Source: Nitrospirota bacterium (GTDB lineage: Bacteria > Nitrospirota > Thermodesulfovibrionia > Thermodesulfovibrionales > UBA6898). From it: a DNA stretch of 64,000 bases. The stretch covers positions 1 to 64,000 of the forward strand of contig QKDO01000042.1 in the NCBI GenBank assembly GCA_003252075.1, in the 5' to 3' direction. The translations under genes were made by a program, and so were the position numbers. The notes beneath the pieces are model-generated. The model worked only from the letters and a program-made list of their open reading frames with translations. It was not told the origin of the DNA and did no database searches. Below are positions 43,938 through 63,259 of this stretch, one piece after another; within the stretch, counting starts at the first letter, position 1, and every line of letters begins with the position of its first letter.

Positions 43938-44798
43938 CTAATTACGTGCCTTAACGACCAGTACCGGGCAGGGGGCATATCCGATGACCTTTTCCGCGAC
44001 ACTGCCCATGAGAAGCCGTTTCAGACCTGTCTTTCCATGGGAGCCGATCACAATGGTATCGGCTTTCCCGGTCTCTGCTACGTCTATGATCGCCTGCCAG
44101 GTCTCGGCCTCTTTGACCATGGTGCTGCAAGCGATTCCTGAACTCTCTGCCTGCTGTTTTGCCTTCTTCAGATGGTCTTGTGCCTTTTCAACCAGTCTAT
44201 CCCAAGCCTCAGGAGCTTCGCCGTAAAATTCGGCCGGCACATCGACCACGGATATGATGATCAGCTCTCCGCCATAGGACGAGGCGAAGTCTATGGCCTT
44301 TTCAACTGCTGCCTGGCTGAATCTCGACCCGTCGGTTGCTACAAGGATTTTCTTCCATCCGACTGTTGTTTCGTTCGGAACAACGAGGACGTCCGTGTGG
44401 CTATATCCTATCACGCGGGCTGTTGAGCTGCCGACCAGCGCACGTTCGATCCTGTTCTGTCCCCGCCGTCCCATGACGATCAGATCGAAGTTCTCACCAT
44501 CTGCCAGGTCAACAATCCGTTCGTGAATCTCTCCTTCTTCGCATACTGTTCGCATGATGACCTTAGCCTCTGCAGCAAGGTTTTTTGCCTCGTCAAGTGC
44601 ATCCTCACAGGGTTTGCGCATTGAGGCCATCACATTGCCGACAGAGGTTGAATCAAGGTCTCCAAGATAAGGTGGGATGACCGATACCACGGTCATCCAG
44701 CACTTTTCATATTCTGCCAACTTGAAGGACTCTTTCAGTGCATGCATGCTTGACAGGGAACCATCGATCGCTGCAAGGATCTTCCGGTATCTGCCCAT
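43938..44798 (-). CDS. Universal stress protein, two UspA domains
   Basis: 286 residues, tandem UspA. Each half has the ATP-binding G-x2-G-x9-G-S motif: GRRGQNRIERALVGSS in the first and GSHGKTGLKRLLMGSV in the second. Cytoplasmic, ATP-binding type. Last gene of the leftward operon that begins with the sigma-54 promoter at 46867, 4 nt after the TauE gene. Confidence 0.9.
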   Translation of the reverse strand: MGRYRKILAAIDGSLSSMHALKESFKLAEYEKCWMTVVSVIPPYLGDLDSTSVGNVMASMRKPCEDALDEAKNLAAEAKVIMRTVCEEGEIHERIVDLADGENFDLIVMGRRGQNRIERALVGSSTARVIGYSHTDVLVVPNETTVGWKKILVATDGSRFSQAAVEKAIDFASSYGGELIIISVVDVPAEFYGEAPEAWDRLVEKAQDHLKKAKQQAESSGIACSTMVKEAETWQAIIDVAETGKADTIVIGSHGKTGLKRLLMGSVAEKVIGYAPCPVLVVKARN

Positions 44799-44802
44799 GC
44801 AT

Positions 44803-45891
44803 TTATGCCTTTGAATGAGCCAGTGACTCCTGCCGTGAGAGCTTTTCTTCCCTCCGCCCCTGCCAGATCGCCTTCAGGATAATAAATGCACCGACTCCGA
44901 GCGCGAATGCCATGATACCGAAGCTGACGTTCTTGAGTATTTTAACGGTCATCTCTGTCATCTCGGGTATCACGCCTAGCTGCGAAAGGTATACCGGCAC
45001 CATCAGTCCCCTGCTGAACAGGACGATTACCATGATCACGCCCATAACCATCTTGATCATGAAGGGCTTCACATAGGTTGTACCCATCGCGCCGAGCTGG
45101 ATGCCAAAGAGCGATCCGCCGAGTATGATCATGGCGAGGCGGATATCTACCAGGCCGCTCATGGCATACTTGAACGATCCGCCGAGACCCATGACGAATG
45201 CGATGACCAGCTCTGTAGCAGATGCCATCAGGCTGGGCGCACCCAACACATAGATCATTGCCGGCACGCCGATGAAACCGCCAACCGCAATCGTTGCCGC
45301 GAGCATTCCGGTCGCGAAGCCGAGCGGGATAGTAAAGAGTATGGAGATCCGTGCATTGAGGCTCTTGAAGTACATCATGGTGCCGGGAATGTGGATCGAC
45401 TGTATCCAGCGCGCGAGCTTCGGGACCTGCTCATCATCGTTTGTAGTGCCCGATTTATGTGTCTTCCATGCGTCGCGGAGAACGAAGCCGCCGACAACGC
45501 TCAGGATGATGACAAATGCAATGCTTACGTAGAGGTTGGATCCCGCGTTGCCGAAGTTCTTCTTGATCAATTCCTGGATATGTGCGCCGTACAGAACGCC
45601 CGCCTCCGCCGAAATGCCAATGATGATACCGAGTTTTACATCGACCTGGCCATACTTTGCCCGCTTAAGGGACCCGACGAGGGCCTTGGGGAATTTGTGG
45701 CACATATTGCTGGCGACCGCCATGAGGCCGGGGACGCCGAGAACCATCATGCCCGGGGTCAGAACGAACGCGCCGCCCGAACCGATGAACCCGCTGACAA
45801 GTCCGCCGACAAAGCCGACGAGGAAAAGATAGGTGACGTTAGCGACGTCGAGATGGATAAAACTGGTTACCTGCGCTACTACATCGTGCAT
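44803..45891 (-). CDS. TauE/SafE-family permease
   Basis: 362 residues, eight or nine membrane segments with the internal repeat of sulfite-exporter-type TauE/SafE proteins: FVGGLVSGFIGSGGAFVLTPG and ATIAVGGFIGVPAMIYVLGAP. C-terminal tail charged. Substrate is probably a sulfur-containing or other organic anion; not determined. A paralogue lies at 62330-63259 in a similar gene context. Confidence 0.88.
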   Translation of the reverse strand: MHDVVAQVTSFIHLDVANVTYLFLVGFVGGLVSGFIGSGGAFVLTPGMMVLGVPGLMAVASNMCHKFPKALVGSLKRAKYGQVDVKLGIIIGISAEAGVLYGAHIQELIKKNFGNAGSNLYVSIAFVIILSVVGGFVLRDAWKTHKSGTTNDDEQVPKLARWIQSIHIPGTMMYFKSLNARISILFTIPLGFATGMLAATIAVGGFIGVPAMIYVLGAPSLMASATELVIAFVMGLGGSFKYAMSGLVDIRLAMIILGGSLFGIQLGAMGTTYVKPFMIKMVMGVIMVIVLFSRGLMVPVYLSQLGVIPEMTEMTVKILKNVSFGIMAFALGVGAFIILKAIWQGRREEKLSRQESLAHSKA

Positions 45892-45892
45892 C

Positions 45893-46150
45893 TTACTTTA
45901 CCTCCTTTTTCTTTTTGGATGCCTCGACGCCGAGAACCGTCCAGAAATGACCGGTGAACGAGCCGTGGATGAATGAAAAGATAAATGCCGTCGCGATCGG
46001 GAGGAACGCGTAAAGTCCTCCTTTTGCGAATGTGTTGTTAATAAAGTCCTGGTTGGTCATGAGCGCTACATAGAGCGCGATAGACACTGCCCCTGCCAGA
46101 AGCATCGGCACTACCGGCTTTTTCCGTGCATGCTGTTCCTGTGCTGCCAT
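45893..46150 (-). CDS. Small two-TM membrane protein
   Basis: 85 residues. Two membrane segments (VVPMLLAGAVSIALYVALM and AFLPIATAFIFSFIHGSF) and a lysine-rich tail (EASKKKKEVK). One base separates its stop from the TauE gene start, so it is probably a partner subunit of that permease. No family recognised. AAGGAGG lies before the ATG. Confidence 0.7.
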   Translation of the reverse strand: MAAQEQHARKKPVVPMLLAGAVSIALYVALMTNQDFINNTFAKGGLYAFLPIATAFIFSFIHGSFTGHFWTVLGVEASKKKKEVK

Positions 46151-46171
46151 GAATTCCTCCTTGGTATGATA

Positions 46172-46345
46172 TTAATGGGATTTTCTCAAAGACTTCTTTA
46201 CCGCCATTTCCGGCCTGTTTGCTGCCCGCTTGCCGGTTCGGTCGTCCTCACGCAGGAATTCCCTGGCTGTTTCGAATTCGCCTTCTTCCGCGAAGGCAAC
46301 TGCCGCCATGATCCTGTCGAATTTTGTAAGTAACGCCTTTTTCAT
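46172..46345 (-). CDS. 57-residue AFAEEGE-motif protein
   Basis: A short gene: MKKALLTKFDRIMAAVAFAE followed by EGEFETAREFLRE, ending in a basic tail. AAGGAGA precedes the ATG at 46345 by 6 nt. The IMAAVAFAEEGE...AR segment recurs in the Usp-like proteins at 46360-46833 (DMLSAAAFAEEGDVKSARD) and 63281-63754 (DIMSAVAFAEENEAAMAQQ). It looks like a stand-alone copy of that helical module. Function unknown. Confidence 0.7.
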   Translation of the reverse strand: MKKALLTKFDRIMAAVAFAEEGEFETAREFLREDDRTGKRAANRPEMAVKKSLRKSH

Positions 46346-46359
46346 TGCAGTCTCCTTTC

Positions 46360-46833
46360 TTATATCTCCGAAGCCGCCGGCTTCGAGATATGAACAATCG
46401 GTTTAGATATATTCTTCAGCATACGTTTGATATCGAGTGATTTTTTGCTTTCCGAAAGTGCCGGGCTCAGAAGGACCATATCGACGTAGGGTCTCGTCTT
46501 GAGGAAGGCCTTGACCGTATTCGTGACATCGCCTTCAGCCATATGGCAGATGAGGTCAACCTCCGTTTTACGCGAACCCTGCATGAAGGACCTGATCTTT
46601 TCCTCAAGGACGGCACTGCATGCATGAGGCTTCCCGGTAAGCATGTCCCTTGCCGATTTCACATCCCCCTCTTCGGCAAAGGCAGCTGCTGAAAGCATAT
46701 CCTCGAGAGGGGCCGGCTGCATGATCAGGACTTCGATACCTGCATTGAGGGTCTTGGCGAGTTCGAGTACATAGGAAAAACCGTCATCGCAATGTTCCCC
46801 CCCTTTGGTAACGAAAAGTATTTTATCCTTCAT
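46360..46833 (-). CDS. Usp-like protein with AFAEEG module, paralogue A
   Basis: 157 residues. Rossmann-like halves ILFVTKGGEHCDDGFSYVLE and VDMVLLSPALSESKKSLDIK...KPIVHISK resemble UspA strands but without the ATP-loop glycines. The AFAEEG helix (DMLSAAAFAEEGDVKSARD) is inserted between them. First gene of the operon after the sigma-54 promoter. ATG at 46833 with AAAGGAGG 8 nt upstream. Paralogue B is at 63281-63754. Confidence 0.75.
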   Translation of the reverse strand: MKDKILFVTKGGEHCDDGFSYVLELAKTLNAGIEVLIMQPAPLEDMLSAAAFAEEGDVKSARDMLTGKPHACSAVLEEKIRSFMQGSRKTEVDLICHMAEGDVTNTVKAFLKTRPYVDMVLLSPALSESKKSLDIKRMLKNISKPIVHISKPAASEI

Positions 46834-46866
46834 CTCTGAACCTCCTTTGAACCGTAACTTCTTATA

Positions 46867-46882
46867 TACAAGCTGCGTGCCA
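46867..46882 (-). promoter_or_regulatory. Sigma-54 promoter, operon A
   Basis: TGGCACGCAGCTTGTA on the minus strand: matches the TGGCAC(G)-N4-TTGC(A/T) consensus except T for C at the -12 GC. 34 bp upstream of the Usp-like ATG at 46833. Confidence 0.75.
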
Positions 46883-47023
46883 TAACTAAACCTATTGAAT
46901 TTAAATAAAAATAATAAAGGAATCATGCGGCAGATCGTTTCATATTGAAACTATAGTGAAACGTATGGCTCTGTCGCAGAGTTCCATAAGATGCAGGTAT
47001 AATGATCATGGAGGTATGGGAAG

Positions 47024-47440
47024 ATGAATCAGGAGCAGATAAGTGGACCGTTGAGGAACCGTCGCGTGCATATGGCGAATGAAAGAACTTTTCTTGCCTG
47101 GATACGTACGAGCATTGCTATCATGGCATTCGGGTTTGTTGTAGAAAAGTTCGCTCTCTTTATCCGGGAGTTTTCGGTCTACATCATGCGAGATCGTAGT
47201 CTTCAGCCATCTCCGGATGCCGTACCGGCCGGAGCCGGGGGGCTATCAGGCTTGCTCGGTATGATACTGGTAGGGCTGGGTGCTCTTATGAGTCTTCTTG
47301 CGTTCATCAGGTACAAGAGGGTAGAGCGTCAGATAGATAATGACAGCTTTCAGCCATCGGTCATCCTTGACCTGCTTCTCGTGATGTCCATCCTGGCTGT
47401 TGCAACATTGCTTGTGCTATACCTCATTCACCGAGTTTGA
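47024..47440 (+). CDS. Single-module DUF202 (YidH-type) membrane protein
   Basis: 138 residues. The N-terminal motif NERTFLAWIRTSIAIMAFGFVVEKF is the DUF202 hallmark. Two more membrane segments at about 78-100 and 112-136. GGAGG lies 9 nt upstream of the ATG, TATAAT at 46997-47002. Function of the family is unknown. It gives the reference for the multi-module DUF202 proteins at 57218-60068. Cotranscribed with the DedA gene (3 nt gap). Confidence 0.88.
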   Translation: MNQEQISGPLRNRRVHMANERTFLAWIRTSIAIMAFGFVVEKFALFIREFSVYIMRDRSLQPSPDAVPAGAGGLSGLLGMILVGLGALMSLLAFIRYKRVERQIDNDSFQPSVILDLLLVMSILAVATLLVLYLIHRV

Positions 47441-47443
47441 GCC

Positions 47444-48052
47444 ATGCCCGACGTATCAGCATTGATAGCGCATTTCCCCTATTTCGGCCTCTTTGTGCTA
47501 CTTGTCCTTGGCGGAATCGGGTTGCCTTTTCCTGAGGATACCACGCTCATTCTGACAGGATTTCTGATCTCCCATCGCGTTATTCGGGTGTTTCCAGCCA
47601 TTATTGTTGTCTATATAGGTGCATTGATCGCTGATGTCCTCATTTTTGCCGTTGGAAGGAAATATGGCAGAAGAATTGTTGATCATCCAAGATTTCAAAG
47701 GTTGCTGACCAGGGAACGGCTTTTCTCGTTGGAAGAGCGTTTTAAAAAACAGGGTATAATCCTGATACTCGCAGGCCGACACCTAATCGGGTTGCGGGCG
47801 CAGATATTTCTCGCTGCCGGCGTTATGAAAATGCCGGTTGCAAAGTTTATTCTGGCTGACGCCTGTTCTCTGACCCTGACGATCGCGCTCATGGTCGGTG
47901 TTGGTATCCTGGGGGGCAACAGCCTTCAGATAATTGAAAAAGATGTGAGACATATCGAGCACGTGGCAATATTCCTGGCATTCCTCGTCTTTGTAGCGTA
48001 TCTGGTCAGGAGATATTTCAGCTCATGGAGGGGCAGGAAGCCCGCGAAGTGA
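47444..48052 (+). CDS. DedA-family membrane protein
   Basis: 202 residues. Family motif GLPFPEDTTLILTGFL near the start and GRHLIGLRAQIFLAAGVMKM in the middle; about five hydrophobic segments. DedA proteins are proposed phospholipid scramblase/flippases for undecaprenyl phosphate and other lipids. Convergent with the regulator gene at 48059. Confidence 0.9.
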   Translation: MPDVSALIAHFPYFGLFVLLVLGGIGLPFPEDTTLILTGFLISHRVIRVFPAIIVVYIGALIADVLIFAVGRKYGRRIVDHPRFQRLLTRERLFSLEERFKKQGIILILAGRHLIGLRAQIFLAAGVMKMPVAKFILADACSLTLTIALMVGVGILGGNSLQIIEKDVRHIEHVAIFLAFLVFVAYLVRRYFSSWRGRKPAK

Positions 48053-48058
48053 CTCCGG

Positions 48059-49387
48059 CTAGCGTTTCAGAATGCGCCAGAGGCTGGTACGCGATATGCC
48101 GAGAAGTTCCGCAGCTTTTGAGCGGTTATGGTCGACAAAGTCAAGGATCTTTTCGGCATATTCCCTGTTCAGTTCCTCGATCGTTCTGACCTTGTTGGGG
48201 GAGATGGTCTCAACATCAAACAGCTTGATGGTCTGGGGCAGGCTTTCGGCATGTATTGTTGTGCTCTTCTCGAGGATTACTGCACGCTCAATGATATTTT
48301 CCAGCTCTCTGACGTTGCCCGGAAAACCGTAGGACATCAGCGTGTCCATGGCCTCTTTGGTGAAGGCCGTTATTTTCTTGTTCTCCTTCTTCGTATACTT
48401 TTGCAGGAAATGTTGGGTGAGCGGGACAATATCTCCTCGGCGTTCCCTGAGGGGCGGGATATATATGTCCATGACATTGAGACGGTAGTACAGATCTTCC
48501 CTGAATTTACCCTCCTTGATGATGGCAGATAGGTTCTGGTTGGTGGCAGCTATGAACCTGACATCGACCCGTATGGCCCGTGTACCGCCTACGCGAATAA
48601 ACTCACGGTCCTCAATGACCTTCAGAAGCTTTGCCTGGATCGTCGGTGACATTTCCGCTATCTCATCAAGGAAGAGGGTCCCGGTATCTGCTATCTCAAG
48701 AAGACCTTTCTTCGCGCTGACGGCGCCGGTAAACGCTCCTTTTTCATGCCCAAAGAGTTCACTGGCTAGGAGTTCCTCGGTGAAGATGGCACAGTTCAGC
48801 GCAAGGAACGGCCTTTCTTTTCTGGCACTGCTGTGATGGATGATCTTTGCGACCAGTCCTTTACCGACCCCGCTTTCCCCCGTAAGAAGAACATTACAAT
48901 CTGAACCGGTGATGCTCCTGATCACCTCGACAACGCGCTGCATGGTGCGGCTCTTTGCGATAAAGGGAAATTCCCGATCAATGCCGAGCGTGGCCTTAAG
49001 GGCCGTGTTCTCTTTCTCTATCCTTTTTTTTTCCAGGACCTTTGCTATCTTGATATGAAGTTCGTCCAGGTTGAAAGGTTTGGTGACATATTCAGAGGCA
49101 CCTTTCTTCATGGCCTCAACCGCCGATTCTATGCTGCCGAACCCCGTTATGATAATGATGTCCATATCAGGGTCCTTTTCCTTGATCTTTTCGAGCAGGG
49201 TGAGGCCGTCTATGCCGGGCATCTTGATATCTGCGACGACAATGTCGTAGTCATTCTTCTCATACAGCGAGAACGCTTCAATACCGTCCTTTGCGCCGGT
49301 GACTGCGTAGCCTTCTTTTTCCAGCGCATAGGTGAGGTGTTTTAAGGAAATTGCTTCATCCTCTGCTATCAGGATCCTCTGGCTCAT
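48059..49387 (-). CDS. NtrC-family sigma-54 response regulator
   Basis: 442 residues. Receiver (ILIAEDEAISLKHL; Asp in IVVADIKMPG), AAA+ domain with Walker A GESGVGKG, GAFTGA loop (HEKGAFTGAVSAKKG), Walker B (GTLFLDEIAEM), and a Fis-type HTH (SKAAELLGISRTSLWRIL). Activates sigma-54 RNA polymerase. Overlaps the kinase gene by 4 nt. The two sigma-54 promoters in the window are its natural candidate targets. Confidence 0.94.
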   Translation of the reverse strand: MSQRILIAEDEAISLKHLTYALEKEGYAVTGAKDGIEAFSLYEKNDYDIVVADIKMPGIDGLTLLEKIKEKDPDMDIIIITGFGSIESAVEAMKKGASEYVTKPFNLDELHIKIAKVLEKKRIEKENTALKATLGIDREFPFIAKSRTMQRVVEVIRSITGSDCNVLLTGESGVGKGLVAKIIHHSSARKERPFLALNCAIFTEELLASELFGHEKGAFTGAVSAKKGLLEIADTGTLFLDEIAEMSPTIQAKLLKVIEDREFIRVGGTRAIRVDVRFIAATNQNLSAIIKEGKFREDLYYRLNVMDIYIPPLRERRGDIVPLTQHFLQKYTKKENKKITAFTKEAMDTLMSYGFPGNVRELENIIERAVILEKSTTIHAESLPQTIKLFDVETISPNKVRTIEELNREYAEKILDFVDHNRSKAAELLGISRTSLWRILKR

Positions 49388-52878: not shown

Positions 52879-55437
52879 TTACAGGCGATAATCGCCGCGC
52901 AGGAAGTTGCCGGTATAGCGTTCTACGGACTCGTCGTTGTGCAGAACTGCATCCAACTGGCGGGTATAAGCGAGGAGCCTGCCAATACTGTTGAGTATTG
53001 CAATCATTTCGTCCTCGTCTCTATTGGATATGCGGGCGGTTATTACTGCCCCCTGGATCTGGCAGACAAAGCCGAATGTAGTGAGGATGGACTCGATGAG
53101 TCTTACCCTACGCGAGCGCTTTGTAAGATCCGTCGCACCACCGGAAAAACGGAAATAGACGTGATTGTTTGTTCTGTTCGGTGAACAGTAGCAGTCAAGC
53201 AAGGTGAAATGGTAGCCGAACTTCAGGCTCAGATTCAGATATTCACGCGATACTACTGCCAGGTTTGTCATTGGCATGCTTGCAGAGGGAGCAGTGATGT
53301 CGGCGAGCTTCATCATGCCGGCAAGGAGGTCACCGGCATGCAGGGCGACCACTTCCGTATGCCACGCACCGGGATGGGTCATGCCGGCGAGAACCGCCCG
53401 CAACGGCACCGAGGATACGCTGTCCATGGTCGCGGTCTTCGCATGTTCGGGAAGGGAGAGCCCGCCGCCGAGATCTATGGCGACGATGCCGGCCGGGACC
53501 GGAAGGTCGAGGTGGACGGCGGTGCGGTCCGTCAGTCCCTGCTCGGCCGCACTGACAAGCTTCATTACCATCTTTTCATGGATGAAGCGCAGGATGTCGT
53601 GCAGGGTACTGCAGCCATTGGGCGTGAAGTCGTCCCGGAACGGATCAACGAGATGCAGAGGCAGGATATATCGCAGGAGGAATTTTTTCTTCCGAAACTC
53701 ATACAGTTCCTCGATAGCCTCATTGTTTCCGCCATCGACAAGGTCGCGGAGGATCCCTTCATAGACCTGAGCTTCTTTTTCCTTTATCATGACCGTGATC
53801 TCCTGTCCGTTGCGAAGAACGGTTGTGGCGGAGCCGCAGTTGACGAGTGTAGGCACCCTGAACTCACGGCAGAGAGAGGCCATGTGGCTGGTGGGAGTGC
53901 CCTGGTCCGTCAGGATGGCGGATGCATATGGCATGACCCGTATGAAGTGCGACGAGTCGTGTCGTGATACGAGCACGCCGCCTTTTGGGAAGCGGTCGAG
54001 GTCATCCGGTGAAGCAGCAATAAAGACCGTGCCCGCGCCGGCGCCTCGTCTGACGGATATGCCCGAGAAGGTCTGAAAAACGGGTAGGCCGGCAGGGGCT
54101 GCTCCTGTCGCACCTGTTTCAGCTGCTGGTCGGAGCGGGAGCGGCCGCGTCTGGAGAATGGTGATAGCGCCGCTCCGGTCGATCGCCCATTCAATGTCCT
54201 GTGGCCGATGGAAAAGTCCTTCTATGCTGAGCGCCTGGGTTGCCAGGGTTGTCAGCGCACGGTCATCGAGAACTGCTTTATTGACAATGGCATCAGGCGT
54301 CTTCATGACTGTTGTCCCGCCATGCAGTGCCGGCACGACCATGGTTTCCTTTGCACCAATCCTGCGTTCGCACATGACAGCCTGGGGAGAACGAGCAATA
54401 CGGTAGGAGTCTGCATCCACCTGTCCCTCAACCACAGAAGTTCCGAGGCCCCAGGTCGCGTTGATCAGCATCTGTCCTTCAGTTCCCCCAGGGTCGGAAG
54501 AGTATGCAACACCGCTGGCAGCGGCATCGATCATGCGGATGACGCCAACGGCCATCCGTATTCCTGTGGGATTGCAGCCGATTGTTTTGCAATAGTGGAA
54601 CGCCCGATCCGAAAAAAGGCTGGCGATCACTGTCTTGTAGGCCTCTGCAAGGGAGGCCGCATCGGCCGGTACATTCAGCACCGTTTCGAACTGTCCGGCG
54701 AATGAGTATTCTCCGTCTTCGCCGACCGCACTGCTTCTGACGGCGAGCAGCTGGTGTGATGTGCCGTCCACCATCCCGGCGAGTGCACCGGTGACAGCAT
54801 CACGGACCCCCGGGGGGAGTGCGCCGGAACAGACGGCCGATCGCAACGCTGCGAGTGTAGCGGGGTCGATTTCCCCTGGCACGGACAGATCTGCGATCTT
54901 ATCGGTCAGTCTGTTGAGGCTCATGAACTCGTCAAAGGAACGCGTAGTGATTACGAAGCCCTGCGGAATCGTGATCTCAGGAAGGCTTCCCAGTTCGCCA
55001 AGGTTCGCCATCTTTCCGCCGACATCCCGCAGACGGTTCATCCGTGCATCAACAAGCGGTACGACAAGGTCGTCCGAAGGCGTTTCATCTTCATTGATCA
55101 GCTGCCGTACGTCATGGTCGATCCGCTCAAGTCTGCTGCCGAGTTCCGCATAACAATTATCGGTCAAAACCGAGAAGCGCTCAAGAAACGCGGAAAAGGT
55201 TCGGTATAGCTCCTCGTAGGCCTGCCGGATATAGACGATGTCGAAGATATACTCGCCGCTCAGCTTCTCGCCGATGTCGGCGATGCGGTCGGCTGCGGTA
55301 TTGTGCAGTTCGAGTACCTCGCGGAACCGTTCGAACAGGACCTTAAAATCTCTGCGTTGCCTGCCGGCAGTACCGCCGAAAAGGCGCCTGCGCAGATCGC
55401 GGATGCCCGAACGGATCTGTGGGGTAAAGATATTCAT
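52879..55437 (-). CDS. PEP synthase/pyruvate-phosphate dikinase-like protein
   Basis: 852 residues. An N-terminal helical region (1-130) is followed by an ATP-grasp PEP/pyruvate-binding domain (GGKMANLGELGSLP...LAVRSSAVGEDGEYSFAGQFE...ILQTRPL) and the swivelling His domain (TQGTPTSHMASLCREFRVPTLV; the phosphohistidine). The C-terminal PEP-binding TIM barrel is replaced by another domain (SLKFGYHFTLLDCYCSP, HVYFRFSGGA). So classical PpsA activity is doubtful; an ATP-dependent phosphotransfer to another acceptor is possible. Overlaps the receiver gene by 4 nt. Confidence 0.85.
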   Translation of the reverse strand: MNIFTPQIRSGIRDLRRRLFGGTAGRQRRDFKVLFERFREVLELHNTAADRIADIGEKLSGEYIFDIVYIRQAYEELYRTFSAFLERFSVLTDNCYAELGSRLERIDHDVRQLINEDETPSDDLVVPLVDARMNRLRDVGGKMANLGELGSLPEITIPQGFVITTRSFDEFMSLNRLTDKIADLSVPGEIDPATLAALRSAVCSGALPPGVRDAVTGALAGMVDGTSHQLLAVRSSAVGEDGEYSFAGQFETVLNVPADAASLAEAYKTVIASLFSDRAFHYCKTIGCNPTGIRMAVGVIRMIDAAASGVAYSSDPGGTEGQMLINATWGLGTSVVEGQVDADSYRIARSPQAVMCERRIGAKETMVVPALHGGTTVMKTPDAIVNKAVLDDRALTTLATQALSIEGLFHRPQDIEWAIDRSGAITILQTRPLPLRPAAETGATGAAPAGLPVFQTFSGISVRRGAGAGTVFIAASPDDLDRFPKGGVLVSRHDSSHFIRVMPYASAILTDQGTPTSHMASLCREFRVPTLVNCGSATTVLRNGQEITVMIKEKEAQVYEGILRDLVDGGNNEAIEELYEFRKKKFLLRYILPLHLVDPFRDDFTPNGCSTLHDILRFIHEKMVMKLVSAAEQGLTDRTAVHLDLPVPAGIVAIDLGGGLSLPEHAKTATMDSVSSVPLRAVLAGMTHPGAWHTEVVALHAGDLLAGMMKLADITAPSASMPMTNLAVVSREYLNLSLKFGYHFTLLDCYCSPNRTNNHVYFRFSGGATDLTKRSRRVRLIESILTTFGFVCQIQGAVITARISNRDEDEMIAILNSIGRLLAYTRQLDAVLHNDESVERYTGNFLRGDYRL

Positions 55438-55808
55438 GCCGGTATGTTCAGTGCCTTCCGGATCGAAGCCTTCAGCTCCTTGATCTTCACGGGCTTGGGA
55501 AAGAAATCATGTACGTCGCCACGCAGCGCCTCGATGGCTGTATCAAGATTGGCGAAGGCCGTTATCATGATCACCTTGATCTGCGGATAAAGGCGCTTCA
55601 CCGTGGTCAGCACCTCCATGCCGTCGATGCCCTTCATTTTATAGTCTGTGACGACCACGTCGAATGGCAGCGTCTGCAGGCGCTCGAGCGCAGGAGCTGC
55701 GTTCAGGAAGGTCTCGACCTCGTATCCCTCCTGCTCCAGTGACAATTTTGCCATGTCCCCGACGATTTTTTCGTCGTCGATGATCATGATCCTATACGGT
55801 GTGTTCAT
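55434..55808 (-). CDS. Single-domain response regulator
   Basis: 124-residue receiver only: IMIIDDEKIVGDMAKLSLE, Asp in DVVVTDYKMKGIDGM, ITAFANLDTAIEAL and Lys in FFPKPVKIKEL. No output domain. Lies between the kinase (17-nt overlap) and the PEP-synthase-like gene (4-nt overlap). AAGGAG precedes the ATG at 55808. Confidence 0.92.
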   Translation of the reverse strand: MNTPYRIMIIDDEKIVGDMAKLSLEQEGYEVETFLNAAPALERLQTLPFDVVVTDYKMKGIDGMEVLTTVKRLYPQIKVIMITAFANLDTAIEALRGDVHDFFPKPVKIKELKASIRKALNIPA

Positions 55809-57213
55809 CTGTCTGCTCCTTTCCCTGATATGTCGGCAATTCAATGGTGAAGGTGGTGCCGACACCCACCTTGCTTTCGACCCGAATTTCCCCCTGGTGG
55901 TTTTTTACAATACCATAACTTACCGAGAGACCGAGACCGGTACCTCCCTCACCCTTGGTACTGAAAAAGGGATCGAAGATGTGCGGGACATATTCCGGGG
56001 GGATGCCCTTGCCGTTGTCCTTGATGGTTACCTCGACAAACCCGGGCTCCTTGCCGAGGCGGGTGCCCACGAAGAGGACGCCGCCATGGGTCATTGCCTG
56101 GATCGCGTTTGTGATGAGATTCACGAGCACTTGCTGGATCTGGCGACGATCGATGAATACCGGCGGCAACCCGGCCGTCATATTCTGGTTCAGTTCCACG
56201 TTAGATATTTCTATCATGTTCTGCAGGAACTTCAGCGCGGTCTGCACGGTATCGTTAATCCCGGCCGGCTTGCGGTCGGCCTTCTGCGGTTTCGCAAAGT
56301 CGAGGAGGTTCTTCACGATCTCCCGGATCCGTTCGGTTTCTGACTCGATCGTATTCATGAACCCGATGCGCTGTTCCGCGTCGAGACGCTCGTAAAGCTC
56401 TGCATAGGTCTGCGCGATCATCGATATGTTGTTCAGCGGATTTGTCAGTTCGTGTGCAACGCCGGCGGTCAGGATGCCGAGTGAGGCGAGTTTTTTTGAC
56501 TGGATAAGCTGGTCCTCCCGATGACCGAGCTCCTCGGACATGGTATTGATGGCATCGATCAGCGCGCCCATCTCGTCAGTCGAGCGGACATCCTCGATCC
56601 GGTGGAAATTCCCCTTTGAGATGGATTTTGCGAGGTTTTCGATCTTCCTGAGTGAACGAAGGATTCGCTGTGAGATGAAGTGGCTCACGGCTCCCGCAAG
56701 GAACAGGACCGCAAAGAAGGAATAGGCGAGAATGTTCTTGGAGCCGGTAATGATGTCGTTCACGCGCTTCTGTTCCATCCTGGTGATGGTTTCGGAAAAT
56801 TCCTTCAGCTTCTTCCCTTTGGCCCGGAGACGGGAAGCTGCCTGCGGGCCGGTCGCCTGTTCCTTCCGTATCTCCCCGACCGTTGTGGCGTACTCGGCCA
56901 GATAGTCTTCCAGTCTGCCGAGGTCAGCGTCGCCGATTGCGCGGGTGATATCGCTACGGACCGCGTTGATCTTAATGCTGGTCGATGCGATCATCTCCTG
57001 GATCTCTTCGAGAGCGACGACATCCTTATAGAGGAAGAAGTTTTTTTCCGAGAGCCGCATCTCAAGAAATGAGGCGTTCAGGTCGTCGGCTATCTCCATG
57101 AACCGGAGCTTGGCAAGGACATTATTGAGGTTTTGAAAGGCGAAAAATCCGATCAGCACGATCAGCGCGACATTGATCGTGTTTGACAGGATGATCTTCT
57201 GCTCGATTTTCAT
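55792..57213 (-). CDS. Sensor histidine kinase
   Basis: 473 residues. TM1 (8-26), periplasmic helical sensor with RLSEKNFFLYKDVVALEEI, TM2 (about 163-183), HAMP, HisKA (TAGVAHELTNPLNNISMI), HATPase_c (NAIQAMTHGGVLF, DNGKGIPPEY, GGTGLGLSVSYGIV). Paralogous to the kinase at 49384 in both the sensor (E-K-N-F-x-L-Y) and kinase parts. Output is the single receiver just downstream. Only 4 nt separate it from the DUF202 gene. Confidence 0.93.
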   Translation of the reverse strand: MKIEQKIILSNTINVALIVLIGFFAFQNLNNVLAKLRFMEIADDLNASFLEMRLSEKNFFLYKDVVALEEIQEMIASTSIKINAVRSDITRAIGDADLGRLEDYLAEYATTVGEIRKEQATGPQAASRLRAKGKKLKEFSETITRMEQKRVNDIITGSKNILAYSFFAVLFLAGAVSHFISQRILRSLRKIENLAKSISKGNFHRIEDVRSTDEMGALIDAINTMSEELGHREDQLIQSKKLASLGILTAGVAHELTNPLNNISMIAQTYAELYERLDAEQRIGFMNTIESETERIREIVKNLLDFAKPQKADRKPAGINDTVQTALKFLQNMIEISNVELNQNMTAGLPPVFIDRRQIQQVLVNLITNAIQAMTHGGVLFVGTRLGKEPGFVEVTIKDNGKGIPPEYVPHIFDPFFSTKGEGGTGLGLSVSYGIVKNHQGEIRVESKVGVGTTFTIELPTYQGKEQTDEHTV

Positions 57214-57217
57214 GGTG

Positions 57218-58408
57218 TCACTCCTGCGGCACGGGGCAGCGGGGCACCTCTGCCTGTTCCTTCCGGACCGGCAGGTACCAGATGAGCCCGTCGGTTATCA
57301 TCAGCATGCCGGCAACGAAGAGGAGCGAATCGAACATGCTCATGACGCCGAAGGAGAAGAACGACAGCAGGCCGAGCCCGAGGCTGGCGAACGAGACACC
57401 TGTCCTGATAAAGGCGAGGCCGGTGCGGGCGCGCGCGTAGATCGTGCGGTAACAGGCAGCAACGCTCCGCTGAGCAGCGAGGACGTTTCTTTCCCGGGCG
57501 AGATGCGTCCGCTCCCTGCTTGACGGTGCCGGGTAGAGTATGGTGCAATGGTTCGCCAGAAAATCACCGAGCCGTGCGAGCATTGTCTGACGCGCCGGTA
57601 CCGTGATTCCCGGTGTATCAATGAAATGGTACTGTTCGAGAAACTGCAGGGATGCGGCCGTAACTTCTATCAGTGTTTGGTGACGGGGAGGGCTCATCCG
57701 GGATCTGCGAACCCGCAGGTATCCGGTCAACCCGTAGATTGAGAGGCAGAAACCCGCGAAGAGCATGGTCCAATAAACAATCACGCCGGGCCCGGGGCCC
57801 CGCATGCGCAAGAGGGTGTTCGACAGGGCGATAACACCCAGCCCCCAGCGGAGGAATGCGAGGTTTGTGCGCGCTGTAGCAAGATCAGTTCGGTAGCATG
57901 CCATTCGGGTTCTCCAGTGGGCCATGGTATTGCGCCAGAAGGCCAGTCCAGTCCGTTCTGTGCCGATAAGGTGACCGGGCTTCGCATGCAGAAAGTCCTG
58001 GATGAACCACTGCAGGTCTTCGCCGAGGGCGACCCAGTATTCATAGCGCTCTGCAGGCAGAAGACGTTCCACTTCAGCCCGCAGGGATGCGTCTGCGGGA
58101 TCGTTCGCAGCGATGACCACAGTGGCTCCTTCCCTGATGAGCGGGAACCACTGGCTCAACGAGAGCCGCTCTCCATCCAGGCCGTCAAGCAGTTCCGCGG
58201 GCACCGGAAACCGTTCATCGTATTCCACAAACGGACACCGGTAAAAATCCGAGAGGGCCTCAAGAACGAGACGTTTCGGAACGTGGAACTCAGCGGTCAG
58301 GATCCGCTCGATATCCTGCCCCCGTGCAGCAGCGGAAAATTTGGCCTGTCGCAGCTCCTCGGGGGAGATGGCGCCGCGGTTCACCAGCAGTTGGTATCTG
58401 TTTTCCAC
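57218..58408 (-). CDS. MshEN-like domain fused to two DUF202-like modules
   Basis: About 396 residues. Residues 5-140 resemble the MshEN/GspE-N fold (LVNRGAISPEELRQAKFSAA, VLEALSDFYRCPFVEYDE, VVIAANDPADAS). Two DUF202-like modules follow at about 150-235 and 297-382, each a run of R-T/S-x-L-A heptads (ERTGLAFWRNTMAHWRTRM; ERTHLARERNVLAAQR) followed by membrane helices; the second ends GLIWYLPVRK. Start uncertain: GTG at 58408, 11 nt after GGAGG, is preferred over ATG at 58432, which overlaps the upstream gene. Function unknown; a c-di-GMP-responsive membrane scaffold is possible. Confidence 0.8.
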   Translation of the reverse strand: MENRYQLLVNRGAISPEELRQAKFSAAARGQDIERILTAEFHVPKRLVLEALSDFYRCPFVEYDERFPVPAELLDGLDGERLSLSQWFPLIREGATVVIAANDPADASLRAEVERLLPAERYEYWVALGEDLQWFIQDFLHAKPGHLIGTERTGLAFWRNTMAHWRTRMACYRTDLATARTNLAFLRWGLGVIALSNTLLRMRGPGPGVIVYWTMLFAGFCLSIYGLTGYLRVRRSRMSPPRHQTLIEVTAASLQFLEQYHFIDTPGITVPARQTMLARLGDFLANHCTILYPAPSSRERTHLARERNVLAAQRSVAACYRTIYARARTGLAFIRTGVSFASLGLGLLSFFSFGVMSMFDSLLFVAGMLMITDGLIWYLPVRKEQAEVPRCPVPQE

Positions 58409-58424
58409 TTGGTGCACTTCCTCC

Positions 58425-60068
58425 TTATGCATCGATATCACTATTGAATACCGCCTTTTTCCACGTACGTGCAGGCCTGCCGTAGTCCGGGATCGTAATC
58501 TCCATCTCGCCGTAGCAATAGGGGTACTGTTTCCGGATCTTGTCGGCAGGCAGATGCCAGTATAGACCGTCAGCGACGAGTACCAGACCGGCCGTGACCA
58601 GCAGCAGATTGAGGATTGTCCAGGGTTTGCTTGCCAATCCGAAATAGGCGAGCAGCCCCATGCCGACCGCTGCTATGCTCATGCCAGTCCTTATAAAGGC
58701 CAGCCCTGTGCGTGAACGCGCCATAACAGTCCTGAGTCGCGCCATGACATTGCGCCTGTCTGCAAGTACGGTCCGCTCGAGCGCCAGACCGGTAGTTGCC
58801 CATATGCCAGGAGCATGGCCGGGTCTGACATGGGGAGGTGGGACCTGACCGGCAGGAGGCTCTTGTATGGCGGGCGGGAAGGCAAGGTCCCATATGGTCT
58901 TCCCTTGCTGGCTCCTGCTAACCGATTCCTGACCCTCTCTGCCTGCGCGTCTGCCCGGAAGGTACCAGTTAAAGCCTTCGCCAGCCATCAGCACGCCGAG
59001 GATTATGAGCGATGCATCAAAGACGGTCCAGGGTCCCGCGTGGAACTGACGAAGCATGGCTATCCCGAGTCCGGCAAAGGCGATACCTGTGCGTGTGAAT
59101 GCAAGACCGGTCCGCGCCCGGGCCATCTTTGTCCGGAGACAGGCAAGGACGGTACGTTCTTCTGCGAAATCCGTTCTGTCGCTCGCAAGAAACCTGCGAC
59201 GCATGACCGGCGACAGGCTGCTCCATCCTGACCGGATTCCTGATGCTTTCTGCACGGCTTCTGTGCGGATGAAGGAAGGGTTATCCCCGGGATGTCTGAC
59301 CTGCAGGACAGTCGTTCCCCAGGTTGGTTCTGTAGATGCGCAGTTGAGAGCGGCCTTGCCCTGTCTGCGTGCGCGGATGTACCAGACCAGCCCGTCCACG
59401 GTCATGACCATACCGGCAGCCAGCAGCAGACATTCCAAAATGACAGACAAGCCAAGACCGAAAAAGCGGAACAACACCACTGAAATGGCAATGAACGATA
59501 TGCCGGTGCGGAGAAATGCGAGGCCGGTGCGTCCCTTTGCCAGGGATGTCCGCGAGCAGGCCATGAGACTTCTCCGGTCCGCGAGGAATGTCCTCACCTT
59601 GGCGAGCGGTGTGCGACCGGCTGCGCGGGGGAACCCAGGGTTGACATCGAAATTGTGTTCGATTATCCGTATAAGGTCCGAAGGTAACGCAACGATGAGA
59701 TCGATAGAATCGACCTTGAGCGTTGCGCGGATGTCACTGGTTACGGCAGGAGACTCAGGATCGGCAACGATTACCTCTGCGCGGTCTTCGCCGATTGACA
59801 GCGGAAGCCAGAGAGAACGTTTGAGCTGATCCATGTCCAACCGCATCGTAATAAAATACGAGACCAGAACGCCTTCGTCGAATTCCGCATAGGGTAGGCC
59901 GTAATATTCTGAAAGGCTGAAGAGGATCTCGTGTTTTGGGATGCCGCCGCTCAGCAGCAGGTCTTCCGGGAATTCTCCGGACGCTTTTGCGGTCCTGACC
60001 GTGGAAGCAAGCTCTTCGTCCGTAATAAGGCGCCGCTCTATCAGGCGGGAAAATTTGTGCGTTATCAT
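58425..60068 (-). CDS. MshEN-like domain fused to three DUF202-like modules
   Basis: 547 residues. Residues 5-145 are MshEN-like (LIERRLITDEELASTV, LLLSGGIPKHEILFSLSEYYGLPYAEFDE, EVIVADPESPAVTSDIRATLK). Three DUF202-like modules at about 152-235, 292-372 and 425-508 each contain R-T/S-x-L-A heptads (RTFLADRRSLMACSRTSLAK; ERTVLACLRTKMARARTGLA; ERTVLADRRNVMARLRTVMA), the core RTGLAFxRTGxxF, and a closing GxxWYxxxR/D. Linkers are Pro-rich. GGGAG lies 10 nt before the ATG at 60068. Cotranscribed with the next gene (58408). Function unknown. Confidence 0.82.
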   Translation of the reverse strand: MITHKFSRLIERRLITDEELASTVRTAKASGEFPEDLLLSGGIPKHEILFSLSEYYGLPYAEFDEGVLVSYFITMRLDMDQLKRSLWLPLSIGEDRAEVIVADPESPAVTSDIRATLKVDSIDLIVALPSDLIRIIEHNFDVNPGFPRAAGRTPLAKVRTFLADRRSLMACSRTSLAKGRTGLAFLRTGISFIAISVVLFRFFGLGLSVILECLLLAAGMVMTVDGLVWYIRARRQGKAALNCASTEPTWGTTVLQVRHPGDNPSFIRTEAVQKASGIRSGWSSLSPVMRRRFLASDRTDFAEERTVLACLRTKMARARTGLAFTRTGIAFAGLGIAMLRQFHAGPWTVFDASLIILGVLMAGEGFNWYLPGRRAGREGQESVSRSQQGKTIWDLAFPPAIQEPPAGQVPPPHVRPGHAPGIWATTGLALERTVLADRRNVMARLRTVMARSRTGLAFIRTGMSIAAVGMGLLAYFGLASKPWTILNLLLVTAGLVLVADGLYWHLPADKIRKQYPYCYGEMEITIPDYGRPARTWKKAVFNSDIDA

Positions 60069-60250: not shown

Positions 60251-60670
60251 TCAGGCACTCACAACAAAAACGGGACAGGGGGACTGATGTATCACTTTTC
60301 CGACAGTGTTGTCGCCGAATATCCTTCTCAGCCAATTTCGCTTCTGTGCTCCCATGACGATCACGTCGCAACGCTCTTCCTCGGCAACCTCAAGGATCTT
60401 TTCGGAAGCATCGCCTTCCTCGATCCTCGTCTTGACCAGCACTCCTTCCGTGTCGGCAAGACGTCTGATCTCTGCGGTTTCAAGCCGGGAGCCGTTGTCG
60501 AGCACATCTTCGATGTTCTTTATCCCGACGAGATTCAGATCGCCTTCGTTCGGCGGAAGCACTTTGACGACCGTGATCCAGCACTTCTCGTCGCAGGCGA
60601 GGTTGATCCCCTTCGAGAGCACCTCTTTCGATCCGTTCACGGCAATAAGTACCTTGCGATATCCTTTCAT
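60251..60670 (-). CDS. Single-domain universal stress protein, degenerate ATP motif
   Basis: 139 residues. UspA fold (KVLIAVNGSKEVLSKGINLA, CDVIVMGAQKRNWLRRIFGD), but the G-x2-G-x9-G-S/T ATP loop is broken (GAQKRNW, GDN), so ATP binding is doubtful. Begins with SD-supported ATG at 60670, 6 nt after the tandem Usp gene. Last gene of operon B. Confidence 0.85.
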   Translation of the reverse strand: MKGYRKVLIAVNGSKEVLSKGINLACDEKCWITVVKVLPPNEGDLNLVGIKNIEDVLDNGSRLETAEIRRLADTEGVLVKTRIEEGDASEKILEVAEEERCDVIVMGAQKRNWLRRIFGDNTVGKVIHQSPCPVFVVSA

Positions 60671-60676
60671 GTTTCT

Positions 60677-61534
60677 TTACCTCACTATGAGTATCGGACA
60701 GCCGGCGTTCAGAATGACCCGTTCGGTCGTGCTGCCCATGATTGCCTTGTTCATGCCGCGGTATCCGTGGCTGCCTATTACGATCAGATCGTGGCTGCGT
60801 TCTTTAGCGATCTCCGCAATCCGGTCGGGCGCATAGCCTTCGGTCACCTCCGTCTTCACCGCTATTCCCTGGATGGCTGCAAACTCCCTGGCCGTTTCCA
60901 TAATCTTATCGGCCTCCTGCATCAGGCTCTTCTGTATCGATTCGGTCTTGAAAAAGTTGACCATTTCCTCGTAACGGGGGATAACGTAGAGTACGGTGAC
61001 TGAACTGCTGTCCTGCTTCGCGATCTGGCAGGCCCGGTTCAGGGCTCGCTTGCTGAAGTCAGAGCCGTCGAAGGGGACAAGCACCGAGGCATACTCTCCG
61101 GTGCATTCGGTGCAGGGCTTTTTCACAACAAGCACATCGGCCGGTGAATCCAGGATGATGCGGGAGGTGACACTTCCCATAAGAAGCCGATTCAGGCCGC
61201 GCCTGCCGTAAGTGCCGAGCACGATGAGATCCGCCTTCTTCCCCTGGGCAACGTCGAGGATCACATCAGGGGGATCACCTTCGCAGAGCAGTGACTGCAC
61301 CTCTATGCCGAATTCCGAGGTTATCTTCTCCTTAGATTCAATACAGGCCTTTTCGCCTATCTTCATGCGTTTGTCAAGCTGTTCGGGGGCAATGCCGAAC
61401 TCTTCGTTGTCAAAGAAGACCGCATGGACCATGATTACTTTCCCGCCGTGTTTGCGGGCCCTATTGGAGGCCTCGATAAGCGCTGCCTTGCTCGAGAGTG
61501 AATCATCGAAGCCGACAACCATTGTTTTATACAT
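60677..61534 (-). CDS. Universal stress protein, two UspA domains
   Basis: 285 residues. Tandem UspA domains with intact ATP motifs GTYGRRGLNRLLMGSV (about 131-146) and GSHGYRGMNKAIMGST (near the C-terminus). Operon B counterpart of the protein at 43938. The preceding gene starts 3 nt away, and the next gene follows after 6 nt. Confidence 0.92.
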   Translation of the reverse strand: MYKTMVVGFDDSLSSKAALIEASNRARKHGGKVIMVHAVFFDNEEFGIAPEQLDKRMKIGEKACIESKEKITSEFGIEVQSLLCEGDPPDVILDVAQGKKADLIVLGTYGRRGLNRLLMGSVTSRIILDSPADVLVVKKPCTECTGEYASVLVPFDGSDFSKRALNRACQIAKQDSSSVTVLYVIPRYEEMVNFFKTESIQKSLMQEADKIMETAREFAAIQGIAVKTEVTEGYAPDRIAEIAKERSHDLIVIGSHGYRGMNKAIMGSTTERVILNAGCPILIVR

Positions 61535-61536
61535 GA

Positions 61537-62328
61537 TTAATGTGCACCTCCGCCCTTTCTGAAGACCAGACCTACACCGAACCCGGCACCCAGCGCAGAG
61601 ACGATCGAGATCAGTCCGTAGAGGGCTGCTTTGTTCTTTGCCATGCCTGCCAGCGTCTTGACGATGCCTGCCTGCTCGACCAGCACTCTTGATTCTGCCT
61701 GGTCAACAACCTTGCCGTCCTTCACCGCGTAGACCGTCACGAGATAGTCGCCAGGAGGGGCCTGGTACGGCCACTGCGTCAGGATATAGTAGGACTGCTC
61801 GCCATCTTTCTCCTTCGTCTCGATGTTGCCGATCGAAGAGGCATACAGCTTGGACTTTTCCTTGAACCTGATGAACTCGCTGAACCACTTGGCCTTTTCC
61901 TCATCGTTCTGGACGGGGTCGAGCACTGCCTGCTTCTCGACTGCTTTGTATCCGATGCCGTACTTGGCCATCTCCTCAGGGGTGAGCAGTTCGTCCAGTT
62001 TCTTTGTGCTGTGGATGGAGTAGAGGTTCGACACGTGTTCGAACTTCATGGTGCCGACGTTCATCCAGAGCAGTCCGCCGACTTTGCCTTTTTCTTTGAG
62101 CGCCTCGTGGCTTTCCGGTGATGCTATCTTGATGACGAGGTCGGTCCCCGGGTCCGAGATGCCGCTGACGCTCACTGTGTTGCCGTGGTAGAAGAAGTCG
62201 ATCTTGATATGGTCGTGGTTTGCTTTCGCCGTGAGCTTGGCCGAAGCCGTACCTGAGACCAGCAGCACTGCCATGCATATCAGCAGGATGAAGAGAGTGG
62301 ATAACTTTGAACCTTGAACATTGAACAT
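61537..62328 (-). CDS. TIGR02186-type transmembrane protein
   Basis: 263 residues with a signal peptide or anchor (LFILLICMAVLLVSGTASA), an Ig-like periplasmic domain (LTAKANHDHIKIDFFYHGNTVSVSGISDPGTDLVIK), and a C-terminal membrane segment (LYGLISIVSALGAGFGVGLVF). Matches proteins that accompany TauE/SafE permeases in alpha- and deltaproteobacteria. Role in that transport is inferred from neighbourhood: the TauE gene lies immediately upstream. Confidence 0.8.
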   Translation of the reverse strand: MFNVQGSKLSTLFILLICMAVLLVSGTASAKLTAKANHDHIKIDFFYHGNTVSVSGISDPGTDLVIKIASPESHEALKEKGKVGGLLWMNVGTMKFEHVSNLYSIHSTKKLDELLTPEEMAKYGIGYKAVEKQAVLDPVQNDEEKAKWFSEFIRFKEKSKLYASSIGNIETKEKDGEQSYYILTQWPYQAPPGDYLVTVYAVKDGKVVDQAESRVLVEQAGIVKTLAGMAKNKAALYGLISIVSALGAGFGVGLVFRKGGGAH

Positions 62329-62329
62329 A

Positions 62330-63259
62330 TTAGTGTCCTCCTGCCTGCGCCAAAAGTAGTGATGGGGTGAGTGTCAGATCGAAAACGATCTTTACCGTGA
62401 CCACGAGAACGATCACGGCGAGTATGATCTTGAGCTGCTCGCCCTTGAGCTTCCGTCCGAAGACCGTGCCGATCTGTGCGCCAACCGTGGAGCCGAGCAG
62501 GAGCAGCACCGCAAGGATGAAGTCGACGTTGTGGTTAGTGTATGCCTGCAGGAACGTCACCTCGATGCAGTTGAAGAGAATCTGAAAGAGGCTTGTTCCG
62601 ACGACCACATGCATCGGCATCCTGAGGATGTAGACCATAACCGGGACCATGAGGAATCCGCCGCCAACGCCCATGAGCGCTGCGAGGATGCCGACAAATC
62701 CCCCGAAGACGATCGGCAGGAGCATCGAGTGCGTCACACCGGACTTCTCGTACCTGGTCTGGAGGGGCAGGGACTTAAGAAAACGCGTGAAGGCATTGTC
62801 CTTCGTCTCCGCCGGCTTTACTGCTTCGCCCTTGTTCTTGCTCTTGCGGATTGCATTCAGACTCTCGATGAACATGTAGGAGCCAACCACGCCGAGCATG
62901 ATCACGTAGGTCATTTTTATCACGAAGTCAGCGTTGCCCATTGCCTTGAGTATTTTGATCGCCTGTACGCCGACAAGACCGCCGACGAACCCGCCGATAA
63001 GCAGATGAAATCCCATCTTGAAATCAACGTTTCCGACCCTCCAGTGGGCGTACGTTCCCGAGGTCGATGCTGCCACGATCTGGTTTGAATCGGTTGCCGC
63101 GGCTACCGTGGCTGGTATGCCGAACATGATAAGAAGTGGCGTCATCAGAAAGCCGCCGCCGACCCCGAAAAGGCCTGAAAGCAGGCCGACTGCCAATCCC
63201 AATCCTACCGGGATCAGGATATTGATGCTGGTGAGTGCTACCGGTAAATACAGATACAT
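62330..63259 (-). CDS. TauE/SafE-family permease
   Basis: 309 residues, about eight membrane segments with the two family repeats (GLLSGLFGVGGGFLMTPLLIM and GILAALMGVGGGFLMVPVMV). Substrate unknown; sulfite/organosulfonate-type anions are common for the family. Central in operon B between the Usp-like gene and TIGR02186. Paralogue of 44803-45891. Confidence 0.9.
   Translation of the reverse strand: MYLYLPVALTSINILIPVGLGLAVGLLSGLFGVGGGFLMTPLLIMFGIPATVAAATDSNQIVAASTSGTYAHWRVGNVDFKMGFHLLIGGFVGGLVGVQAIKILKAMGNADFVIKMTYVIMLGVVGSYMFIESLNAIRKSKNKGEAVKPAETKDNAFTRFLKSLPLQTRYEKSGVTHSMLLPIVFGGFVGILAALMGVGGGFLMVPVMVYILRMPMHVVVGTSLFQILFNCIEVTFLQAYTNHNVDFILAVLLLLGSTVGAQIGTVFGRKLKGEQLKIILAVIVLVVTVKIVFDLTLTPSLLLAQAGGH

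Follow-up and report, generated by a model that had tools for sequence, protein, structure and literature searches.

What do two overlapping genes, each joining an MshEN domain to a row of DUF202 modules, encode, and what might their products do in the membrane? The question is raised by a 64,000-nucleotide stretch of a Nitrospirota contig, hereafter the window, in which such genes, here termed M3 and M2 after their three and two modules, form a pair. DUF202 is widespread and, to our knowledge, has no assigned function outside the eukaryotic VTC complex.

Results

Searches with Pfam profiles placed both domain types above the cut-off in each of the two reading frames, as the initial annotation had proposed, with M3 upstream and M2 downstream, overlapping the end of M3 by 17 bp (Table 1). 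MshEN (PF05157) was found with E 1.6e-9 in M3 and 6.1e-9 in M2, and DUF202 (PF02656) with E 2.3e-16 over three stretches of M3 and E 2.3e-7 over two stretches of M2, the latter profile scoring 60.4 and 31.6 bits, respectively, against a cut-off of 23.4. When the whole genome was searched with PF02656, the same five sites were returned together with the canonical DUF202 gene of the window, which had been described as having one unit and does consist of a single module; we take its product to be of the YidH/YidG type. Neither M3 nor M2 has the C-terminal ATPase domain of type II secretion or type IV pilus proteins in the Pfam search, and the TTM/CYTH polyphosphate polymerase domain (PF09359) is likewise absent from both. 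No match was obtained in PHROGs or PADLOC, nor in a plasmid search with the three-module protein. None of the papers searched names both MshEN and DUF202, in keeping with the earlier remark that the multi-module arrangement is unusual; the architecture is real, conserved and undescribed in the searchable literature.

Table 1. Location of the gene pair, its domains and neighbours, and comparison loci. Positions without a prefix refer to the window; L numbers denote other loci.
Feature	Position	Strand	Description
M3 gene	58425-60068	-	547 aa; MshEN and three DUF202 modules; six predicted TM helices
M2 gene	57218-58441	-	407 aa; MshEN and two DUF202 modules; four predicted TM helices
MshEN domain of M3 (aa 1-141)	59646-60068	-	fold confirmed; c-di-GMP residues degenerate
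MshEN domain of M2 (aa 1-153)	57983-58441	-	fold confirmed; c-di-GMP residues degenerate
Module B1 (M3 aa 152-241)	59346-59615	-	ladder R152, 159, 166, 173, 180, 187, then TM1, TM2
Module B2 (M3 aa 291-380)	58929-59198	-	ladder R291, 298, 305, 312, 319, 326, then TM1, TM2
Module B3 (M3 aa 425-516)	58521-58796	-	T425, ladder R432, 439, 446, 453, 460, then TM1, TM2
Module A1 (M2 aa 163-252)	57686-57955	-	ladder R163, 170, 177, 184, 191, 198, then TM1, TM2
Module A2 (M2 aa 311-400)	57242-57511	-	ladder R311, 318, 325, 332, 339, 346, then TM1, TM2
Sensor histidine kinase (HAMP, HisKA, HATPase)	55792-57213	-	directly downstream of M2; most constant neighbour
Single-domain response regulator (receiver)	55434-55808	-	ATG start chosen within longer ORF 55434-55865
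PEP-synthase-like protein	52879-55437	-	ATP-grasp PPDK_N and phosphohistidine swivelling domain, conserved His (TSHMAS)
Two universal stress protein (Usp) genes	60251-61534 (60251-60670, 60677-61534)	-	upstream, same run
Alph_Pro_TM membrane protein	61537-62328	-	upstream neighbour in many Nitrospirota loci
TauE/SafE permease	62330-63259	-	upstream neighbour in many Nitrospirota loci
Canonical single-module DUF202	47024-47440	+	three TM helices, three Arg rungs; comparison standard, outside the pair
Second Usp/TauE set and sigma-54 response regulator	43941-49387		near the canonical DUF202 gene
Frameshifted two-module gene resembling a kinase fusion	L110:7526-10141 (= L067:283-2898)		
Tandem of two three-module genes and one two-module gene	L083:4244-8896		
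Single-module DUF202 with ladder	L211:13171-13890	+	240 aa
Four DUF202 genes in a row	L217:2419-5455		Leptolyngbya sp. BL0902 plasmid NZ_CP046157.1
Last of these, fused to SBF-family domain	L217:4013-5455		
Single-module DUF202 with ladder	L218:3998-4645		Neorhizobium petrolearium plasmid NZ_CP123001.1

An assembly error as the origin of the fusion is excluded by the recurrence of the gene pair in dozens of independent genomes: among named records it is found, with the genes overlapping, in Nitrospirota, Thermodesulfobacteriota (also Ca. Electronema), Myxococcota and Actinomycetota. A hand count gives the pair in 41 of about 396 genomes of the window's phylum, and outside this phylum it is sporadic: two samples of about 396 genomes each, on the Thermodesulfobacteriota side and on the Actinomycetota side, yielded 8 and 5 genomes with the pair, respectively. 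Counting with a module profile over the home-phylum loci, 80 named loci of the genome collection and seven further loci of other phyla returned three plus two modules at every intact locus, the sole departures being contig ends, an extra copy of the three-module gene (L083, where the three genes stand in tandem) and one frameshift (L067, the same as L110). The frameshifted gene had the appearance of a two-module protein fused to a histidine kinase (872 aa), a candidate that we rejected, the frame of the last module reading through nonsense (GAGIYEIFRLEPRHAPG...) into the kinase.

A search of all loci for a single protein with the five modules fused gave none. The scan of the collection used two peptide patterns, one of them taken from the start of module B3, so that architectures lacking B3 would escape it; the search of the phylum, which is free of this limit, revealed no intermediate forms. 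When 100 modules were placed in a tree, they grouped by position into five clades (five changes, the minimum possible), so that the five positions were distinct before the copies of the various lineages split; the constant number of modules could be plain inheritance. The total of five modules had gone unnoticed in the initial annotation, as had the agreement between the ladder and the residues that line the VTC pore and the drop from three TM helices per module to two, both described below.

Taking the core arginine of RTGLAF as position 0, four modules carry arginine at positions -28, -21, -14, -7, 0 and +7, and module B3 carries it only at the last five of these (-21 to +7), which gives 29 arginine rungs per M3 and M2 pair. 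This exact spacing of seven residues in all five modules bears out the R-T/S-x-L-A heptads first read from the translations. In 86 non-redundant loci, a set selected for the presence of both genes with three and two modules and hence not the basis of the 3 + 2 constancy, each of the 29 rungs is 94-100% arginine, versus 3-8% at other positions of the same helices, which is well above what chance would give. Mean entropies at the conserved heptad positions are 0.07 (R), 0.37 (T), 0.70 (L/M) and 0.42 bits (A), the three remaining positions being variable (0.91-1.23 bits); conservation of the former with variability of the latter is the pattern of helices buried on one face. By hydropathy, rungs -28 to 0 lie outside the membrane and rung +7 at its edge.

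Heptads alone are not unique to the pair, because RT-heptad ladders are also carried by DUF202 proteins with a single module elsewhere. One of them, encoded about 1.5 kb from a 3 + 2 pair (L211), has at least 12 unbroken RT heptads (about 16 with mismatches) on a helix of more than 100 residues that runs into TM1. In the product of the last of the four Leptolyngbya genes, an SBF-family transporter domain is joined to a DUF202 with about ten RT heptads; this gene adjoins that for a formylglycine-generating enzyme. The Neorhizobium protein, with about nine RT heptads, is encoded next to two arylsulfatase genes and a DUF1622 gene. These proteins share with the pair a long run of RT heptads into TM1 but differ in having one module, up to 12 unbroken rungs and no MshEN domain; their position beside arylsulfatases, or their fusion to an SBF domain, points to anions in general. 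A search of viral contigs with the long-ladder protein gave no relative.

AlphaFold models of the M3 and M2 monomers, built from 70-row alignments (mean pLDDT 85 and 83, pTM 0.76 and 0.63), give each module a long first helix of about 50-56 residues and a shorter second one; ladder and TM1 form a single continuous helix, after which comes the second TM helix, a correction to an earlier note. Six hydrophobic segments are found in M3, four in M2 and three in the canonical DUF202 protein, the third TM helix of the canonical/VTC1 form being missing here, with two TM helices per module versus three. Since the number of TM helices per module is even, every ladder of a tandem starts on the same side, the cytoplasm, along with MshEN; from this we infer that all ladders are cytoplasmic, as three TM helices per module would make them alternate.

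Structure prediction also gives the MshEN fold in both proteins, with TM-scores of 0.71-0.72 to 5htl in Foldseek and with MshE (5htl) and PilF GSPII as the best matches, so that the lack of this fold, one way in which the proposed architecture might have failed, was not encountered. The suggestion that the N-terminal domain binds c-di-GMP fared otherwise. The binding motif is RLGxx(LVI)(LVI)xxG(LVI)(LVI)xxxxLxxxLxxQ, present twice (PMC5013675), with the first residue later relaxed to R/K/L, and PilF GSPII-A, one of whose motifs is degenerate, does not bind c-di-GMP (PMC11731258). Neither MshEN domain of the pair has two RLGxx..Q motifs, and nearly all of 70 family members have other residues in place of the RLG glycines and of the c-di-GMP-contacting glutamines. 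In M3, motif I has F/Y/L in place of the glycine and motif II has E (G in 2 of 53), and the glutamines have become S/A in motif I and mostly Y/H/R/F in motif II, motif I being wholly missing in about 20 of 70 proteins; in M2 the glycine has become F/Y (motif I) or R/K/T (motif II) and the glutamines A (motif I) or Y/H (motif II). Because of these replacements, binding of c-di-GMP by either domain appears unlikely despite the 18 GGDEF matches in the window genome. The domains resemble those of MshE, PilF and PilB in fold and in the order of helices and strands but differ from them in that no ATPase follows and the c-di-GMP contacts are lost.

The modules of the pair contain the RT-x-L-A-x-x-RT core entering TM1, followed by TM2, and match canonical DUF202 proteins with an hhalign probability of 96% (E 1.5e-9); the link between canonical DUF202 and the pair is well supported. 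Canonical bacterial proteins have the same core, with arginines at -7, 0 and +7, but are single modules with three TM helices, a ladder of at most three rungs and no MshEN domain. The further link from canonical DUF202 to VTC is weak in sequence, and the relation of the pair to VTC would run through it. In a search of the PDB up to E 1, the canonical profile matched VTC subunits and nothing else (best E 0.013); the module profile alone reached no VTC there by sequence, and VTC was not among the best 50 Foldseek matches of either whole model. Pairwise alignment of the motif is gapless (ANERTFLAWIR in the canonical protein versus ANERTFLSWLN in Vtc1) and pairs R14, R21 and R28 with Vtc1 K24, R31 and N38, so that ladder rungs -7 and 0 fall in line with two proven pore residues, Vtc1 K24 and R31.

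VTC is a 3:1:1 pentamer whose five TM1 helices form a channel lined by Vtc1 K24/R31, Vtc4 K622/R629 and Vtc3 K694/K698/R705/R709, and mutation of the channel residues abolishes the vacuolar polyphosphate store (Guan et al. 2023, PMC9911596); Vtc1 has been annotated as DUF202 in a diatom study (PMC7283521). The TM region of VTC and the pair share the DUF202 type of module, a spacing of seven between basic residues where TM1 begins and a total of five modules, and two chains of the VTC complex bear N-terminal cytoplasmic domains, as M3 and M2 do. The pair differs in having two TM helices per module instead of three and up to six rungs instead of two, and in being bacterial and fused in tandem as 3 + 2, with MshEN in place of SPX-TTM and no polymerase domain. 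It is a variant of the DUF202/VTC-type membrane module and not a separate kind.

The order of transcription in the window is TauE, Alph_Pro_TM, Usp, Usp, M3, M2, histidine kinase, receiver and PEP-synthase-like protein. The initial annotation had named the kinase, receiver, PEP-synthase-like and stress genes correctly but had the order wrong: the pair follows the Usp genes and precedes the other three. Among non-redundant loci with enough sequence, 58 of 77 have a kinase directly downstream, 62 of 70 a same-strand receiver, 49 of 69 a PPDK-like gene no more than 6 kb away and 26 of 63 TauE/SafE upstream; the pair genes themselves overlap and keep a constant strand. In Actinomycetota loci the pair is retained but not directly followed by a kinase, and in the window a SulP permease gene lies downstream. 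The PPDK-like proteins retain the phosphohistidine motif (S/T)HMA, and many Desulfobacterota have two extra paralogues upstream of the pair. The protein in the window has no known acceptor domain and lacks the PEP/pyruvate barrel; its C-terminal third is conserved and unknown. Elsewhere in the window, the canonical DUF202 gene is followed by a VTT-domain gene, and in several other genomes too a canonical gene is found within about 10-20 kb of the pair.

Family searches, through which gene co-occurrence was assessed, found no PPK1, PPK2 or VTC polymerase domain in the window genome, which is 96% complete; a polyphosphate cargo is therefore unsupported, being possible only by way of another enzyme or of uptake. 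PPK1 occurs in 81 of 396 genomes of the phylum, in three families only, and in none of the 41 that bear the pair. Mutual exclusion of PPK1 and the pair was considered and rejected, as the two sets of genomes belong to different families and the pattern is one of clade structure; outside the phylum sample, PPK1 is present in 4 of 20 pair genomes.

Discussion

The reading that we favor, with a probability of roughly 45%, is that the pair constitutes a pseudo-pentameric pore or antenna for anions or polyanions. Counting of modules and analogy with VTC suggest that M3 and M2 are subunits of one membrane complex, whose three and two modules would close into a pseudo-pentameric ring in the manner of the five separate TM modules of yeast VTC. 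The first helix of each module would then start in the cytoplasm and enter the membrane, and the five together would enclose a tube with as many as six rings of arginines facing its lumen; such a tube might attract and conduct, or simply hold, an anionic polymer or many small anions. The cytoplasmic MshEN domains, their c-di-GMP binding presumably lost, may act in docking or gating, and the adjacent kinase and receiver may set the expression or activity of the complex.

The constancy of the kinase and receiver genes would also suit a rather unlikely alternative, namely that the pair is a signalling scaffold in which a membrane-anchored helical bundle senses something and relays its state to these two proteins, the arginines holding anionic lipid headgroups or a phosphorylated partner and nothing being conducted. 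MshEN domains of the pilus type are protein-protein modules as well (7lko and 7lkm, the PilB N-domain with PilZ, by Foldseek), which speaks for such a role; however, the pair persists in Actinomycetota without a kinase directly downstream, and lipid binding accounts neither for the rungs, as many as five, that lie outside the membrane nor for a module number of exactly five. Unlikely too, and overlapping with the pore reading, is the handling of small oxyanions, whereby the ladder would concentrate or conduct sulfate, sulfite, phosphate or another small anion, and not a polymer, together with the TauE/SafE and SulP permeases. The occurrence of these permeases near the pair, the arylsulfatase and SBF associations of the ladder relatives and the missing PPK1 and PPK2 fit this idea, but TauE and SulP are not constant neighbors and up to 29 stacked arginines exceed what a small-anion channel needs.

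The most far-reaching version of the VTC analogy would make the operon a bacterial VTC counterpart, in which the PPDK-like enzyme makes or extends an anionic phosphate polymer that the 3 + 2 tube threads through the membrane, the whole replacing polyphosphate kinase where an organism lacks it; we regard this as highly improbable. The least probable of the readings weighed here is a membrane protein gated by c-di-GMP, the MshEN domains binding the nucleotide and thereby opening or closing the assembly: the fold of both models and the GGDEF matches of the genome would accommodate it, but the motif glycines and glutamines are replaced, a considerable share of M3 proteins lack motif I altogether, and in PilF GSPII-A a single degenerate motif already goes with the loss of binding.

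The pair has several merits for the study of DUF202. Its two chains fix the number of modules at five, each position having a sequence of its own, and since the genes thereby specify the stoichiometry, the oligomeric state can be put to the test. Mutation of the ladder arginines offers a direct way to probe what is bound or conducted by DUF202 proteins, and the ladder, being of extreme length, is a naturally occurring example of a polybasic helical tube. If the parallel with VTC is true, the translocation of polyanions would be a general bacterial trade that extends beyond vacuoles.
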